This document shows positions 2,713 to 6,791 of a stretch of DNA of 45,038 bases, piece by piece (within the stretch, counting starts at the first letter, position 1; each line of letters begins with the position of its first letter). The translations under genes and the position numbers were made by a program. This stretch comes from an uncultured Lachnospiraceae bacterium. Lineage in GTDB: Bacteria; Bacillota; Clostridia; Lachnospirales; Lachnospiraceae. The stretch covers positions 1 to 45,038 of the forward strand of contig CANRGP010000006.1 in NCBI GenBank assembly GCA_947630085.1, read 5' to 3'. Under the pieces are notes generated by a model. That model saw only the letters and a program-made list of their open reading frames with translations, was not told the origin of the DNA and made no database searches.

Positions 2713-3654
2713 ATGGACATTCAATATCTTTTGTTTTTGCAGAACATAAGGGAGGCCATGGGAGGAGTGCTGAACAGCTTCTTCCTGCAGATCAGCGATC
2801 TGTCTAATGGGATTTTTATCTGGACGCTGGCCTGCGTTATGTTTTGGTCCGTCGATAAAAAGAGCGGAAGGTTTCTGTTTTTAAACATCGGCTTTGCCCG
2901 GTTTTTCATGCAGTTTCTGAAGCAGACCTTCTGCGTATACCGGCCCTGGATCCGCTCCGATCAGATCGTACCGGTGGAAACGGCTTCCGGTTATTCCTTT
3001 CCCAGCGGTCACAGCATAACGGCCACATCCAATTACGGAACTATGATAGAGCGCAACCGGAAGTATAAGCCGCTGTGCATTTTCCTGGGCCTCATGATCC
3101 TCCTTACGATCTTTTCCCGGAATTATATTGGCGTCCACACTCCCCAGGACGTGATCGTGGGGACCCTGCTCGGCGCGGCGGTAGTTGTGGGAGGCGCGAA
3201 GGTCTGGGAATGGATCGATGAGCATCCGGAAAAGGACTGGCTGATCCCCTGCGCGGGCGTGGTGCTGACCGTCCTGTTTTTGATCTACATTTCCGTCAAG
3301 TCCTATCCCATGGACTATGTGGACGGGAAGCTCCTGGTAGATCCGGAGAAGATGAAGGTGGACGGCTATAAGGATGCGGGACGGCTCCTGGGAGTCACGC
3401 TGGGGTGGTTTCTGGAAAGACGTTTCGTTAGATTTTCCATGGATGTACCGGCATTGCAGAAGGTAACCAGAGCGGGCGTGGGCGTGCTTTTGCTTATCTT
3501 CATCGAGAAGTGCCTGATGCCCGCCGTGACGGGAGCGTTTGCGTTCTCCTGGGTGAACAGCCTGATGACGTTTTTGGAACTGTTCATTCTCATGGTGGTT
3601 TATCCTTTGTGCTTTTCCCGCCTGGAGAGATCGGGCAGATCGGAGAATCCGTGA
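2713..3654 (+). CDS. PAP2-family membrane phosphatase
   Basis: This 313-residue polytopic membrane protein carries all three parts of the acid phosphatase/PAP2 signature: K-x6-RP (K70 to R77-P78), PSGH (97-100) and SR-x5-H-x3-D (S135, R136, H142, D146). Family members dephosphorylate lipid phosphates such as undecaprenyl pyrophosphate, phosphatidic acid or phosphatidylglycerol phosphate at the membrane. The C-terminal half adds further hydrophobic segments beyond the minimal catalytic core. The gene starts 75 bases after clpB behind a GCGAGGAAAT ribosome site. The intergene is A-rich but I see no convincing terminator or promoter. Substrate cannot be told from sequence; lipid-carrier recycling would fit the envelope genes nearby, which is inference. 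Confidence 0.88.
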   Translation: MDIQYLLFLQNIREAMGGVLNSFFLQISDLSNGIFIWTLACVMFWSVDKKSGRFLFLNIGFARFFMQFLKQTFCVYRPWIRSDQIVPVETASGYSFPSGHSITATSNYGTMIERNRKYKPLCIFLGLMILLTIFSRNYIGVHTPQDVIVGTLLGAAVVVGGAKVWEWIDEHPEKDWLIPCAGVVLTVLFLIYISVKSYPMDYVDGKLLVDPEKMKVDGYKDAGRLLGVTLGWFLERRFVRFSMDVPALQKVTRAGVGVLLLIFIEKCLMPAVTGAFAFSWVNSLMTFLELFILMVVYPLCFSRLERSGRSENP

Positions 3655-3727
3655 GGGTAATCTGATACAGAAGAAAGAACACACAGGAGGGCCTTAAGCG
3701 GTCCGTCCGGCCTTTTGCAGAAAATAC

Positions 3728-3756
3728 TGGACGCGTGAGGAAAGGTGTGGTATATT
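3728..3756 (+). promoter_or_regulatory. Sigma-A type promoter for the riboswitch/exchanger transcript
   Basis: TGGACG (3728-3733) and TATATT (3751-3756) are separated by exactly 17 bases, and are immediately upstream of the riboswitch aptamer. The -35 matches the consensus at 4 of 6 positions, the -10 at 5 of 6. Predicted start is near 3763, which leaves the aptamer complete. Confidence 0.55.
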
Positions 3757-3765
3757 ATTTCCTGA

Positions 3766-3924
3766 AAAGACAGTTAAAAGGGAGTAGTTTGCACCGTCCG
3801 GCGTGAGCAGGGCGGTGTGGTATGGCATCGTCAGCCCGTAGATGATACCGGGCCATACCCTGAACGGCACGTTTGGAAGCGAGACTTTTAGCGCAACACA
3901 GCGCTGGGAGTTTCGCTTTTTTTC
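3766..3924 (+). promoter_or_regulatory. yybP-ykoY family (manganese) riboswitch
   Basis: The leader shows the conserved blocks of the yybP-ykoY aptamer in the right order: AAAAGGGAGTAG (3776-3787), an internal stem block GGCATCGTCAGCCCG (3824-3838) and AGCGAGAC (3878-3885). Characterised members bind Mn2+ and turn on Mn2+ efflux or cation-homeostasis genes. The last conserved block, AGCGAGAC, is also the start of the 5' arm of a perfect terminator stem (3878-3894 with 3901-3917), so aptamer closure and termination are mutually exclusive. This predicts transcription of the exchanger gene only when ligand is bound. Identification is by eye; a covariance-model search would settle it. Confidence 0.82.
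3878..3923 (+). terminator. Riboswitch expression-platform terminator
   Basis: A 17-base 5' arm AGCGAGACTTTTAGCGC (3878-3894), a 6-base loop AACACA and a 17-base 3' arm GCGCTGGGAGTTTCGCT (3901-3917) pair throughout, with a few G-T wobbles, and run into seven T residues (3917-3923). It lies 53 bases before the ATG of the exchanger. Its 5' arm consumes the conserved 3' element of the aptamer, the hallmark of a transcriptional riboswitch. Confidence 0.85.
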
Positions 3925-3976
3925 GGGGAGACGCCCGGCGCGGGAAGGGAAACCTATTTCCAAGGAGGAAGATGAA

Positions 3977-4915
3977 ATGGTAGTTACGGTAGCATTGTTT
4001 GTTCTGGGCCTGGTTCTGATCTGCATCGGAGGGGACAGGCTGGTGGACGCGGCGGTCGCCATTGCCCGCAAGATCGGAATTCCTCAGATCGTGGTGGGGG
4101 CCACTATCGTGAGTCTGGGAACCACTCTCCCCGAGATACTGGTTTCGACTACGGCGGCGTTTGACGGTTCGGCGCCCATTGCGGCGGGAAACGCTTTCGG
4201 GTCCATTATCTGCAATACGGCCCTGATCGCGGGACTGACGCAGACGATACGGCCGACAAAGAAGGTGGAGTCGGCCCCGCTTGTCTGGCGCGGCGCCATA
4301 TTTTTTGGCGTTATCGGGATTCTGGAAGCCGTGGCGATCCTAAAGGGAGAATTCAGCCGCCCGGTGGGCTTCTTCCTCCTGGGAATGTTTGTGGTATATG
4401 CCGTACTGAATATCGTCCGTGCGAAAGCGGAGGGAGACGACGACGGGAAGCAGGAGAAGAGTGAAGACACCTCCCTGTTCCTCCAGCTGGTGATCCTGGC
4501 AGGCTGCGCCGTGCTTCTGTATTTCGGCGCCAACCTTCTTGTGGACAACGGGATCCTGATCGCGCAGGCGCTGAAGGTTCCGCAGAGAGTCATTGCCGTC
4601 ACGTTCATCGCCCTTGGAACGTCGCTCCCCGAGCTGGTGACATCCATTATGTCGATGGTCAAGGGATATGCCAATGTGGGGCTCGGCAATGTGATCGGAG
4701 CGAATATCCTGAATCTGCTGGCGGTGATCGGCATCCCGGCGGCGGTGGTGGGGATCCCGCTCGAGTCGTCTACATTTCAGATGGACATCCCCCTGTCGAT
4801 CCTGGTTATGGCCATCCTGATCCTTCCCGTTCTTTTCCGGAAGAAGGTTTCAAGGGTCCAGGGGATCCTGCTTCTCGGCATTTACGCGGCCTACTGCGTT
4901 GTGTCGTTCCTCTAA
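3977..4915 (+). CDS. CaCA-family cation exchanger (YrbG-like), probably Mn2+/Ca2+ efflux
   Basis: The 312-residue protein has the two inverted repeats of the Ca2+:cation antiporter superfamily, each with its alpha motif: SLGTTLPEILVST in the first half and ALGTSLPELVTS in the second, with hydrophobic helices either side and a short charged central loop (EGDDDGKQEKSED). I start it at the ATG at 3977, five bases after AAGGAGGAAG; an upstream in-frame extension to 3842 would run back through the riboswitch and terminator and is rejected. Family members exchange Ca2+ for Na+ or H+ across the membrane. The Mn-type riboswitch directly upstream suggests that this one exports Mn2+, or is at least induced by it; that is inference from context. 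The gene is alone in its transcription unit. Confidence 0.9.
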   Translation: MVVTVALFVLGLVLICIGGDRLVDAAVAIARKIGIPQIVVGATIVSLGTTLPEILVSTTAAFDGSAPIAAGNAFGSIICNTALIAGLTQTIRPTKKVESAPLVWRGAIFFGVIGILEAVAILKGEFSRPVGFFLLGMFVVYAVLNIVRAKAEGDDDGKQEKSEDTSLFLQLVILAGCAVLLYFGANLLVDNGILIAQALKVPQRVIAVTFIALGTSLPELVTSIMSMVKGYANVGLGNVIGANILNLLAVIGIPAAVVGIPLESSTFQMDIPLSILVMAILILPVLFRKKVSRVQGILLLGIYAAYCVVSFL

Positions 4916-4928
4916 GAGGAGAACTCTC

Positions 4929-4957
4929 TTTTCAGAGAAGAAAAAATGTGATACGAT
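4929..4957 (+). promoter_or_regulatory. Promoter with extended -10 ahead of the DUF4250/cls pair
   Basis: TTTTCA (4929-4934), 17 bases, then TACGAT (4952-4957) preceded by TGA, giving an extended -10 (TGATACGAT). The identical TGATACGAT element occurs at the promoter of the - strand phospholipase gene (41961-41969). Confidence 0.45.
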
Positions 4958-5057
4958 AGATGCAGCAGGCAGGGGCGGTGCTTTCCGGCATACGTCCCGT
5001 GCCTTCCGCGGCGTGGGGGCGCGCGCCGCAAAACAGCGGCGAACGGAGGAGAACTCT

Positions 5058-5264: not shown

Positions 5265-6791
5265 ATGGAGCAGATTCTGAATGCCATCGCCTCCGTGTGG
5301 AGATGGCTGATGGAAAATCTTTTATATATCAACCTGATCCTATCCGTGATCATCGTTTTTTTCCAGCGCAGGGATCCGAAAGCCGTGTGGACGTGGCTTC
5401 TCGTCCTTTATTTCATTCCGATCTTCGGCTTTCTGCTCTACCTGATCCTCTGTCAGGACTACCGGAAGAGCAGGATGTTCCGGATCAAGGAAGTGGAGGA
5501 CCGGCTTTCCAACCCGGTGAAGGAGCAGGAGAAGATCCTGCAGGATACCATCGGAAGTCTGAAGGATTCCCCGTGGAGGGACTATGAGGCCCTGGTCCTC
5601 TATAACCTGGAGACATCCGGAGCGGTTCTGACAACGGACAACTCCGTCGAGATCTTTACGGACGGCGACAGCAAGTTCGCAGACCTGAAAAAGGAGCTTC
5701 AGGCCGCCGAAAAATATATCCACATCCAGTATTACATCATCAAGAACGACGAGCTGTTCCAGTCGATCATTCCCATTCTGAAGGAAAAGGCGGCGGAGGG
5801 CGTGGAGGTCCGTGTGCTGTATGACGGCATGGGCGGACGTTTTATGCCCAACAGGGTATGGAAGGAGCTTCGGGCCGCTGGGATCCGGGTAGGGGAATTT
5901 TTTCCTGCGTTTCTGGGAAGGCTGCAGCTGCGCGTCAATTACCGGAACCACCGGAAGATCGTGGTGATCGACGGCAAGGTGGGATATGTGGGCGGCTTCA
6001 ATATCGGGCGGGAGTACATTTCCCGCGACCCCAAATTCGGACACTGGCGGGATACCCACCTGAAGATCCGGGGCAGCGCTGTCTACAGCCTGCAGATCCG
6101 CTTTGCCCTGGACTGGAATTATGCCGCCGGGGAAAACCTGTTCCGGAGCGGAAAATATTTCGGACTGGATGATGCGGGCCAGGCCGAGGATGTGCGGGAG
6201 GCCATGCGGAGGAGTCTGAGCCCGGATATGAACGGGGACCATCAGGTGATGCTTCAGATCATTGCCAGCGGCCCCGATGCCAGCAACCGCCAGATCCGCA
6301 ACAATTATCTGCAGCTTTTTTACCGGGCCAGGAAGCACATCTATGTGCAGACGCCGTACTTCATTCCGGACGACGCCGTCCTCTCCGCGCTCAAATTCGC
6401 GGCGGAGTCGGGCGTGGATGTGCGCCTGATGATCCCGTGCAAGCCGGATCATCCGTTCGTCTATTGGGCGACGTATTCGTATATGGGGGATCTCCTGGCG
6501 GCGGGAGCCCGCTGCTATACCTATGAAGACGGCTTTCTCCATGCCAAGGGAGTCATGGTTGACGGCCTGGTGAGCTGCTACGGGACCGCCAACATGGATA
6601 TACGCAGCTTTGAACTGAATTTTGAGGTGAACGCTACCGTTTATGATGAGGAGGTCACCGGCCGGCTGGAAAAGATATTTATGAAAGACCTGGAGAGCTG
6701 CCGCGAAGTGACCCGGGAGATGTATGCCGGACGGAACCTGTGGATCCGGTTCCGTGAACAGTGCAGCAGGCTCCTCTCCCCGCTTCTTTAA
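5265..6791 (+). CDS. cls: Cardiolipin synthase (PLD superfamily)
   Basis: Cardiolipin synthase joins two phosphatidylglycerol molecules into cardiolipin and glycerol at the cytoplasmic membrane. The 508-residue protein has the bacterial ClsA layout: two N-terminal membrane helices (about 10-30 and 40-60), a linker, and two phospholipase D domains each with an HxKxxxxD motif: H229-R-K with the following VVIDG, and H426-A-K followed by GVMVDG. GGFNIGREY and TANMDIRSFELNFE after the two motifs are typical of the family. It follows the DUF4250 gene by 12 bases with AAAGGAAAAC as the ribosome site. A weak inverted repeat, GAAAACG (6795-6801) and CGTTTTC (6815-6821), just after the stop may serve as a terminator. 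Confidence 0.95.
   Translation: MEQILNAIASVWRWLMENLLYINLILSVIIVFFQRRDPKAVWTWLLVLYFIPIFGFLLYLILCQDYRKSRMFRIKEVEDRLSNPVKEQEKILQDTIGSLKDSPWRDYEALVLYNLETSGAVLTTDNSVEIFTDGDSKFADLKKELQAAEKYIHIQYYIIKNDELFQSIIPILKEKAAEGVEVRVLYDGMGGRFMPNRVWKELRAAGIRVGEFFPAFLGRLQLRVNYRNHRKIVVIDGKVGYVGGFNIGREYISRDPKFGHWRDTHLKIRGSAVYSLQIRFALDWNYAAGENLFRSGKYFGLDDAGQAEDVREAMRRSLSPDMNGDHQVMLQIIASGPDASNRQIRNNYLQLFYRARKHIYVQTPYFIPDDAVLSALKFAAESGVDVRLMIPCKPDHPFVYWATYSYMGDLLAAGARCYTYEDGFLHAKGVMVDGLVSCYGTANMDIRSFELNFEVNATVYDEEVTGRLEKIFMKDLESCREVTREMYAGRNLWIRFREQCSRLLSPLL

Follow-up and report, generated by a model that had tools for sequence, protein, structure and literature searches.

A candidate Mn2+ riboswitch of the yybP-ykoY class with an overlapping terminator upstream of a CaCA exchanger gene in Lachnospiraceae

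The exchanger gene and its leader RNA

The window analysed here is a 45,038-nt stretch of a contig from an uncultured Lachnospiraceae bacterium. On its plus strand, which also carries the leader features described below, positions 3977–4915 encode a 312-residue CaCA exchanger of the YrbG-like type, and an AGGAGG resembling a ribosome-binding site is read from the sequence at 3963–3968. The protein scores 200.7 bits against TIGR00367 (curated cut-off 179.65) and 189.5 bits against PF01699, the latter in two Na_Ca_ex stretches, and contains two alpha repeats with the glutamates of GT(S/T)LPE. The assignment to the CaCA proteins made in an earlier note on this DNA is upheld. The narrower model PRK10734, which bears the same description (calcium/sodium antiporter), gives 188.6 bits, under its cut-off of 432. 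Near relatives of the gene, at 80–83% identity, sit in Lachnospiraceae contigs. The preceding gene (2713–3654) encodes a PAP2 family protein, and the region downstream (5265–6791) a cardiolipin synthase (TIGR04265 above cut-off).

Upstream of the exchanger gene lies a leader in which all core elements of the yybP-ykoY (Mn2+) aptamer can form (3776–3889). It is preceded at 3728–3756 by a promoter-like site, TGGACG and TATATT spaced by 17 nt with a TG ahead of the second hexamer; this is a consensus match, and a consensus scan of 3600–5000 gives two such sites against 0.6 expected. Comparison of leaders places TGGACG...TATACT at the same spot in loci L031, L032, L036 and L037. The aptamer is closed by P1.1 (AAAAG, 3776–3780, paired with CUUUU, 3885–3889), supported by sequence, covariation and the model R3 described below. 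P1.1 stands beside (G)CGAGAC and beside the L1 block GGAGUAG (3781–3787), whose columns are invariant in both of our leader alignments, A1 and A2. AAAAG GGAGTAG is read at 3776–3787, and AGCGAGAC (3878–3885) together with the 3′ strand of P1.1 occupies 3878–3889, supported by sequence and covariation; the conserved blocks described in the earlier note are present where it placed them. P1.2 (3787–3789 with 3878–3880) is supported by covariation, and the hairpins P2 (3791–3818; 3791–3799 with 3810–3818) and P4 (3860–3876; 3860–3866 with 3870–3876) by folding and covariation. The P3 arm (3819–3859) has a lower stem (3819–3826 with 3852–3859), an upper stem (3838–3840 with 3846–3848) and the loop L3, with CGUCA (3829–3833) on its 5′ side (3827–3837) and CGG (3849–3851) on its 3′ side. 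We take the metal-contacting adenosine of L3 to be that of the UCA motif. An L3 adenosine, A48, contacts the metal in the Mn2+ riboswitch (PMC6754395). The fold of 3778–3925 (−71 kcal/mol, z −6.0) contains P2, P3, P4 and a terminator. In the minimum-energy fold of the leader, L3 is closed by an additional helix (3827–3832 with 3841–3846), which forms six of six pairs in the window and two to four of six in the other 14 leaders of A1.

The intrinsic terminator (3879–3923) consists of an unbroken 16-bp stem with four G-T pairs (3879–3894 with 3901–3916), a loop at 3895–3900 and seven T at 3917–3923; folded by itself, 3870–3925 gives z −7.4. The earlier note had described a 17-bp stem ending in seven T. 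The overlap with the aptamer stands, and the count becomes either 16 bp followed by seven T or, with A3878-T3917 included, 17 bp followed by six. Against this, a simple terminator scan of 3600–5000 lists two hairpins, and the 16-bp hairpin at 3879–3916 is absent from it despite its 6-nt loop and seven T. Positions 3879–3889, the 3′ bases of P1.2 and P1.1, are common to terminator and aptamer, giving an expression platform that competes with P1.1. Of 50 leaders, 46 have at least four of the five P1.1 3′ bases paired downstream; by automatic reading, 41 of the 50 also carry four or more T in the eight bases that follow this hairpin.

In members of the class from Lactococcus lactis and Xanthomonas oryzae, Mn2+ stabilises P1.1 and thereby blocks the terminator (PMC6754395, PMC11087558). 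Because the window leader has the same arrangement, activation by Mn2+ is the expected sign, a direction that we infer from anatomy; the geometry of a transcriptional ON switch, proposed earlier, is thus supported by comparison, the terminator taking the 3′ strand of P1.1. At low Mn2+, this strand (3885–3889) would enter the terminator hairpin, and RNA polymerase would halt near 3917–3923. At higher levels, Mn2+ would be held between L1 and L3, with the CGUCA adenosine (3833) as the expected metal contact; the bound ion would stabilise P1.1, the terminator would be blocked and the exchanger produced. The exchanger, in turn, would most likely lower cytosolic Mn2+, and perhaps Ca2+ too.

Covariance models and covariation

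An Rfam covariance search had been proposed in the earlier note as a check on the leader. It returns no Mn2+ family and no match to RF00080, either at gathering level in the whole window or at E 10 in 3655–3990; the leader does not reach the RF00080 gathering score, which is a rule of detection and not a structural feature. Yet RF00080 equally fails two leaders of Escherichia coli, that of mntP, at 41.6 bits below the cut-off of 45, and that of alx, which goes unreported at E 1 (E. coli loci L123:2462–2558, L124). Its silence at the window is therefore weak evidence. RF00080 likewise has no match at E 0.001 in the window's own genome, and in 150 genomes of the family it matches at E 1 in 16 and above cut-off in none.

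We built a covariance model, R1, from 15 leaders of CaCA genes, with no E. coli sequence among them. R1 finds the E. coli leaders of mntP (46.4 bits, E 2e-11) and alx (25 bits, E 2.4e-5), and these are its sole matches at E 1 in 15,502 bases. At E 0.01, with up to 25 candidates scored per genome, it has matches in at least 85 of the 150 family genomes, a count that includes the window's own genome and one of the same genus, both sources of training rows. A group of such leaders is missed by RF00080. Since RF00080 exceeds its cut-off in none of the 150 genomes in which R1 has these matches, Mn2+ regulons drawn up from RF00080 only would be incomplete in Lachnospiraceae. A further model, R3, was made from 12 leaders without the window and with E. 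coli mntP and alx, its rows being aligned via R1, which contained the window; it matches the window at 3773–3889 (58.5 bits, E 3.1e-12), its sole match at E 10 in 45 kb. R2, built from leaders of sister lineages and also without the window in training, matches the window as well (24.3 bits, E 0.0043 in 513 kb). Both strands were also searched for a core pattern (GGAGTAR; SGTCA or TCAACA; RCRAGAC within 60–200 bases; at least four of five P1.1 pairs): the window has one instance, and 100 dinucleotide shuffles of it have none.

Covariation was followed in two alignments, A1 (15 leaders) and A2 (25 leaders of sister lineages), together 40 of the 50 leaders; the others are L035 and L037 (copies of L031 and L002), L021, L018, L092, L095, L046, L048, L058 and L060. 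In A1, pairing holds in 91.2% of cells, and 21 of 35 pairs are changed on both sides, at least one of them in each of the six helices of the four-helix junction P1–P4. None of 500 shuffles attained the A1 values, and slides of one to three columns cut pairing to 34–48%. In A2, 98.4% of cells pair, with double changes in 9 of 23 pairs. When 100 leaders are aligned to R1, 92.1% of cells pair, in an alignment biased towards structure. Covariation and the models R1 and R3 lend support to the claim that the leader holds an aptamer of yybP-ykoY type.

One CaCA leader (L021:1006–1123) weakly matches RF02617, SSRC10 or 'Streptococcus sRNA 10' (29 bits, cut-off 56, E 0.1). It is a guess that the SSRC10 sRNA could be the terminated transcript of a Mn2+ riboswitch.

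Genes behind related leaders and the transported ion

We fetched 110 R1 matches, leaving aside G063:C54 (contig end) and, save two, the rows from E 2.1e-4 on; 109 had an open reading frame of 60 aa or more that begins no further than 700 nt away, and L156 was excluded at a contig end. Downstream groups were formed by single-linkage BLAST of the longest reading frame starting within 700 nt, and from each of the P-type, Band_7, OAD_beta, CNNM, CitMHS and unnamed groups a single member was checked against Pfam. Behind the 109 elements lie genes for P-type ATPases (41), CaCA proteins (21), MntP (13) and others (34), the last comprising OAD_beta (9), an unnamed family (7), Band_7 (6), CNNM (3), CitMHS (2) and a remaining seven. 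The yybP-ykoY-like leaders before OAD_beta group genes (L142, L158, L178, L179, L183, L187, L191, L203, L225) precede what is, from the one member checked against Pfam, the beta subunit of a Na+-transporting decarboxylase, no obvious Mn2+ gene. Leaders of the same class precede the unnamed family of 138–178 aa (L173, L213, L217, L220, L222, L226, L233), whose sole member put to Pfam, L173, gave no match at E 1e-5. A second R1 match in the window's own genome (L155, G000:C17:12589–12681, minus strand; 34.1 bits) lies before a gene for a Band_7/SPFH protein; among the 109 loci, five further genera show the same arrangement. A tie between the 3′ letters of L3 (CGC/CGU versus CGG) and the downstream gene was considered and dropped, CGU being found also in 10 of the 41 ATPase leaders.

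The same genome additionally carries mntP (L235, G000:C29, 4144–4590, minus strand). Its upstream region holds a promoter-like TTGACA...TACAAT and GGGAGCAG, as well as a hairpin that resembles a terminator and has a T run; no aptamer lies between the first two and the hairpin, and R1 has no match there at E 1. The mntP of a same-genus genome retains the long leader form (L236, 15.6 bits). Either the riboswitch of the first gene has been lost or the assembly has a gap.

Approached from the exchanger side, 105 CaCA loci were fetched and four dropped (under 300 nt upstream and no hit). Among the 101 evaluable loci, an R1 match lies within 700 nt upstream in 54 (at 50–688 nt) and at 876–877 nt in two (L092, L095), and 45 are without a match; at 60% identity or more, 22 of 64 loci have none. 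These counts and those from the 50 leaders are not independent, since the sets have loci in common (L001 being the window) and one leader serves both members of L002/L037, as of L025/L104. The order leader-MntP-CaCA is found in L025 and L104, which count as one case because their leader is identical, and leader-GDT1-CaCA in L092 and L095. The R1 matches of these two pairs are weak (20.6 and 24 bits), with core and terminator present. That MntP or GDT1 shares a leader with CaCA in sister loci bears out the association of the exchanger with Mn2+ genes.

We consider it highly probable that the YrbG-like CaCA exchanger is governed by a yybP-ykoY (Mn2+) riboswitch acting as a transcriptional ON switch; the exchanger would then most likely lower cytosolic Mn2+. 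Weighing against this reading are the silence of RF00080 at the window, the additional helix that closes L3, the CaCA loci that lack an R1 match, the family elements before other genes, the weak matches of L025/L104 and L092/L095, and the presence of mntP in the window's own genome. Being preceded by an RNA switch of Mn-sensing type, the exchanger probably handles manganese. Judged from sequence, its induction by Mn2+ is very likely. That it is a Mn2+ exporter is plausible, given the riboswitch and the neighbours behind the same leader.

The protein itself is less telling. Its nearest solved structure is NCX_Mj (MJ0091; PDB 3v5s/3v5u), aligned over residues 2–304 of 312 (E 4e-36). We take E54, N81, E213 and D240 of NCX_Mj to be ion ligands, and compared the positions that we assume to form its ion sites (47, 50, 51, 54, 77, 81, 206, 209, 210, 213, 236, 237 and 240). 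There the window exchanger reads S T T E S N A T S E A N N: it keeps T50, E54, S77, N81, T209, S210 and E213 and differs by A47S, S51T, S236A and D240N. The same string is seen in 45 of 54 loci with a leader and 32 of 46 without, the latter set including L092 and L095, whose leader sits 876–877 nt upstream. A residue marking Mn2+ transport was sought and none emerged, as no ion-site residue separates the two sets; the sequence cannot distinguish Mn2+ from Ca2+ as the transported ion. It is therefore conceivable that the aptamer senses Mn2+ but Ca2+ is the main ion carried, the exchanger responding to Mn2+ for some secondary reason, for instance to balance Mn and Ca. The retention of E54, N81 and E213, with D240 replaced by N, would fit this. 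Moreover, a gene may stand under a Mn2+ riboswitch without encoding an exporter, as the example of Alx shows, which is apparently no exporter according to a review (PMC9936198). We nonetheless hold a mainly Ca2+-moving exchanger to be unlikely, as CaCA recurs with the leader RNA and shares a single leader with MntP or GDT1, and cells without functional BP3410, a CaCA protein of Bordetella pertussis, contain more Mn (PMC8546581).

It may also be asked whether the leader is a variant of the yybP-ykoY fold that responds to a divalent ion other than Mn2+, such as Ca2+. The authors of PMC7266159 regard changed specificity as likely for some yybP variants, and the 25 CaCA leaders of A2 (within L040–L077 and L085–L091) lack P2, and so have one helix fewer, and carry an altered L3, reading YCAACAAUC or GCAACAUAUC. 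For the window this is very unlikely: its leader keeps the full four-helix form with an alx-like L3, and the sister L3 (YCAACAAUC / UGG) is like the one in E. coli mntP (UCAACAUAC / UGG). The idea that P2-less leaders form a separate RNA class was rejected on this likeness and because R1, trained without them, finds them at 20–36 bits. Close kinship is nevertheless made less likely by R2, which was trained on them and misses the E. coli leaders at E 0.01. An ordinary intergenic terminator with a chance likeness to yybP-ykoY, to which the lack of an RF00080 match might point, is exceedingly improbable in view of the covariation, the recovery of E. coli leaders by R1, the terminator overlap in relatives, the detection of the window by R2 and R3, both made without it, and the absence of the core pattern from shuffles.

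If a Mn2+ riboswitch controls the exchanger, a large family of gut bacteria carries likely Mn2+ genes under the bare annotation of calcium/sodium antiporter. The MntP-CaCA and GDT1-CaCA loci behind one leader render this assignment testable. A much broader proposal, which we doubt, is that Lachnospiraceae CaCA proteins make up a wide group of Mn2+ exporters that has gone unrecognised, controlled by yybP-ykoY RNAs invisible to RF00080, with sister aptamers (no P2, reshaped L3) perhaps shifted in ion preference, for instance towards Ca2+.

Comparison with known systems

A CaCA exchanger under a Mn2+ riboswitch is not new in kind. The earlier note saw a new assignment for the transporter; B. pertussis BP3410 is a precedent (PMC8546581), to which this locus adds a member. 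According to that study, BP3410 is a CaCA protein induced by Mn through yybP-ykoY, its transcript ends early without Mn, its expression is unaffected by added Ca2+, and cells in which it is non-functional contain about 5-fold more Mn. A 2023 review places BP3410 and BPP3560 among Mn exporters under Ca2+:cation exchanger, YRBG (PMC9936198). BP3410 and the window exchanger both stand behind a riboswitch, and for both the nearest solved structure is the Methanocaldococcus jannaschii exchanger. The host of BP3410 is distant, and its leader is found by Rfam (E 8.5e-15, PMC8546581), whereas the window leader is not; its effect on cell Mn has been measured, whereas the window exchanger is known from sequence. 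A literature search, largely of titles and abstract openings, found no Mn2+ riboswitch before a CaCA gene in Lachnospiraceae or elsewhere in Clostridia, and earlier studies could mention one.

In expression platform, the window leader is closest to the Mn2+ riboswitches of L. lactis and X. oryzae, ON switches in which, as here, the terminator takes the 3′ strand of P1.1 (PMC11087558, PMC6754395). The L. lactis riboswitch controls yoaB, a P-type ATPase gene (PMC11477304), whereas the window leader precedes a CaCA gene. E. coli mntP differs in being under a translational riboswitch (PMC11647493), whereas the window leader carries a terminator. Further differences from the yybP-ykoY class are the upper P3 stem in the window, of 3 bp, and the silence of RF00080 there at E 10. 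The aptamers themselves share several features: the mntP and alx leaders have, as in the window, P1.1, L1 with GGAGUA(G/A), GAGAC, a P3 arm with UCA and CGG or UGG in L3, and metal-transport genes downstream. In L3 the window resembles alx, which reads AUCGUCA...CCGG beside AUCGUCA / CGG in the window.
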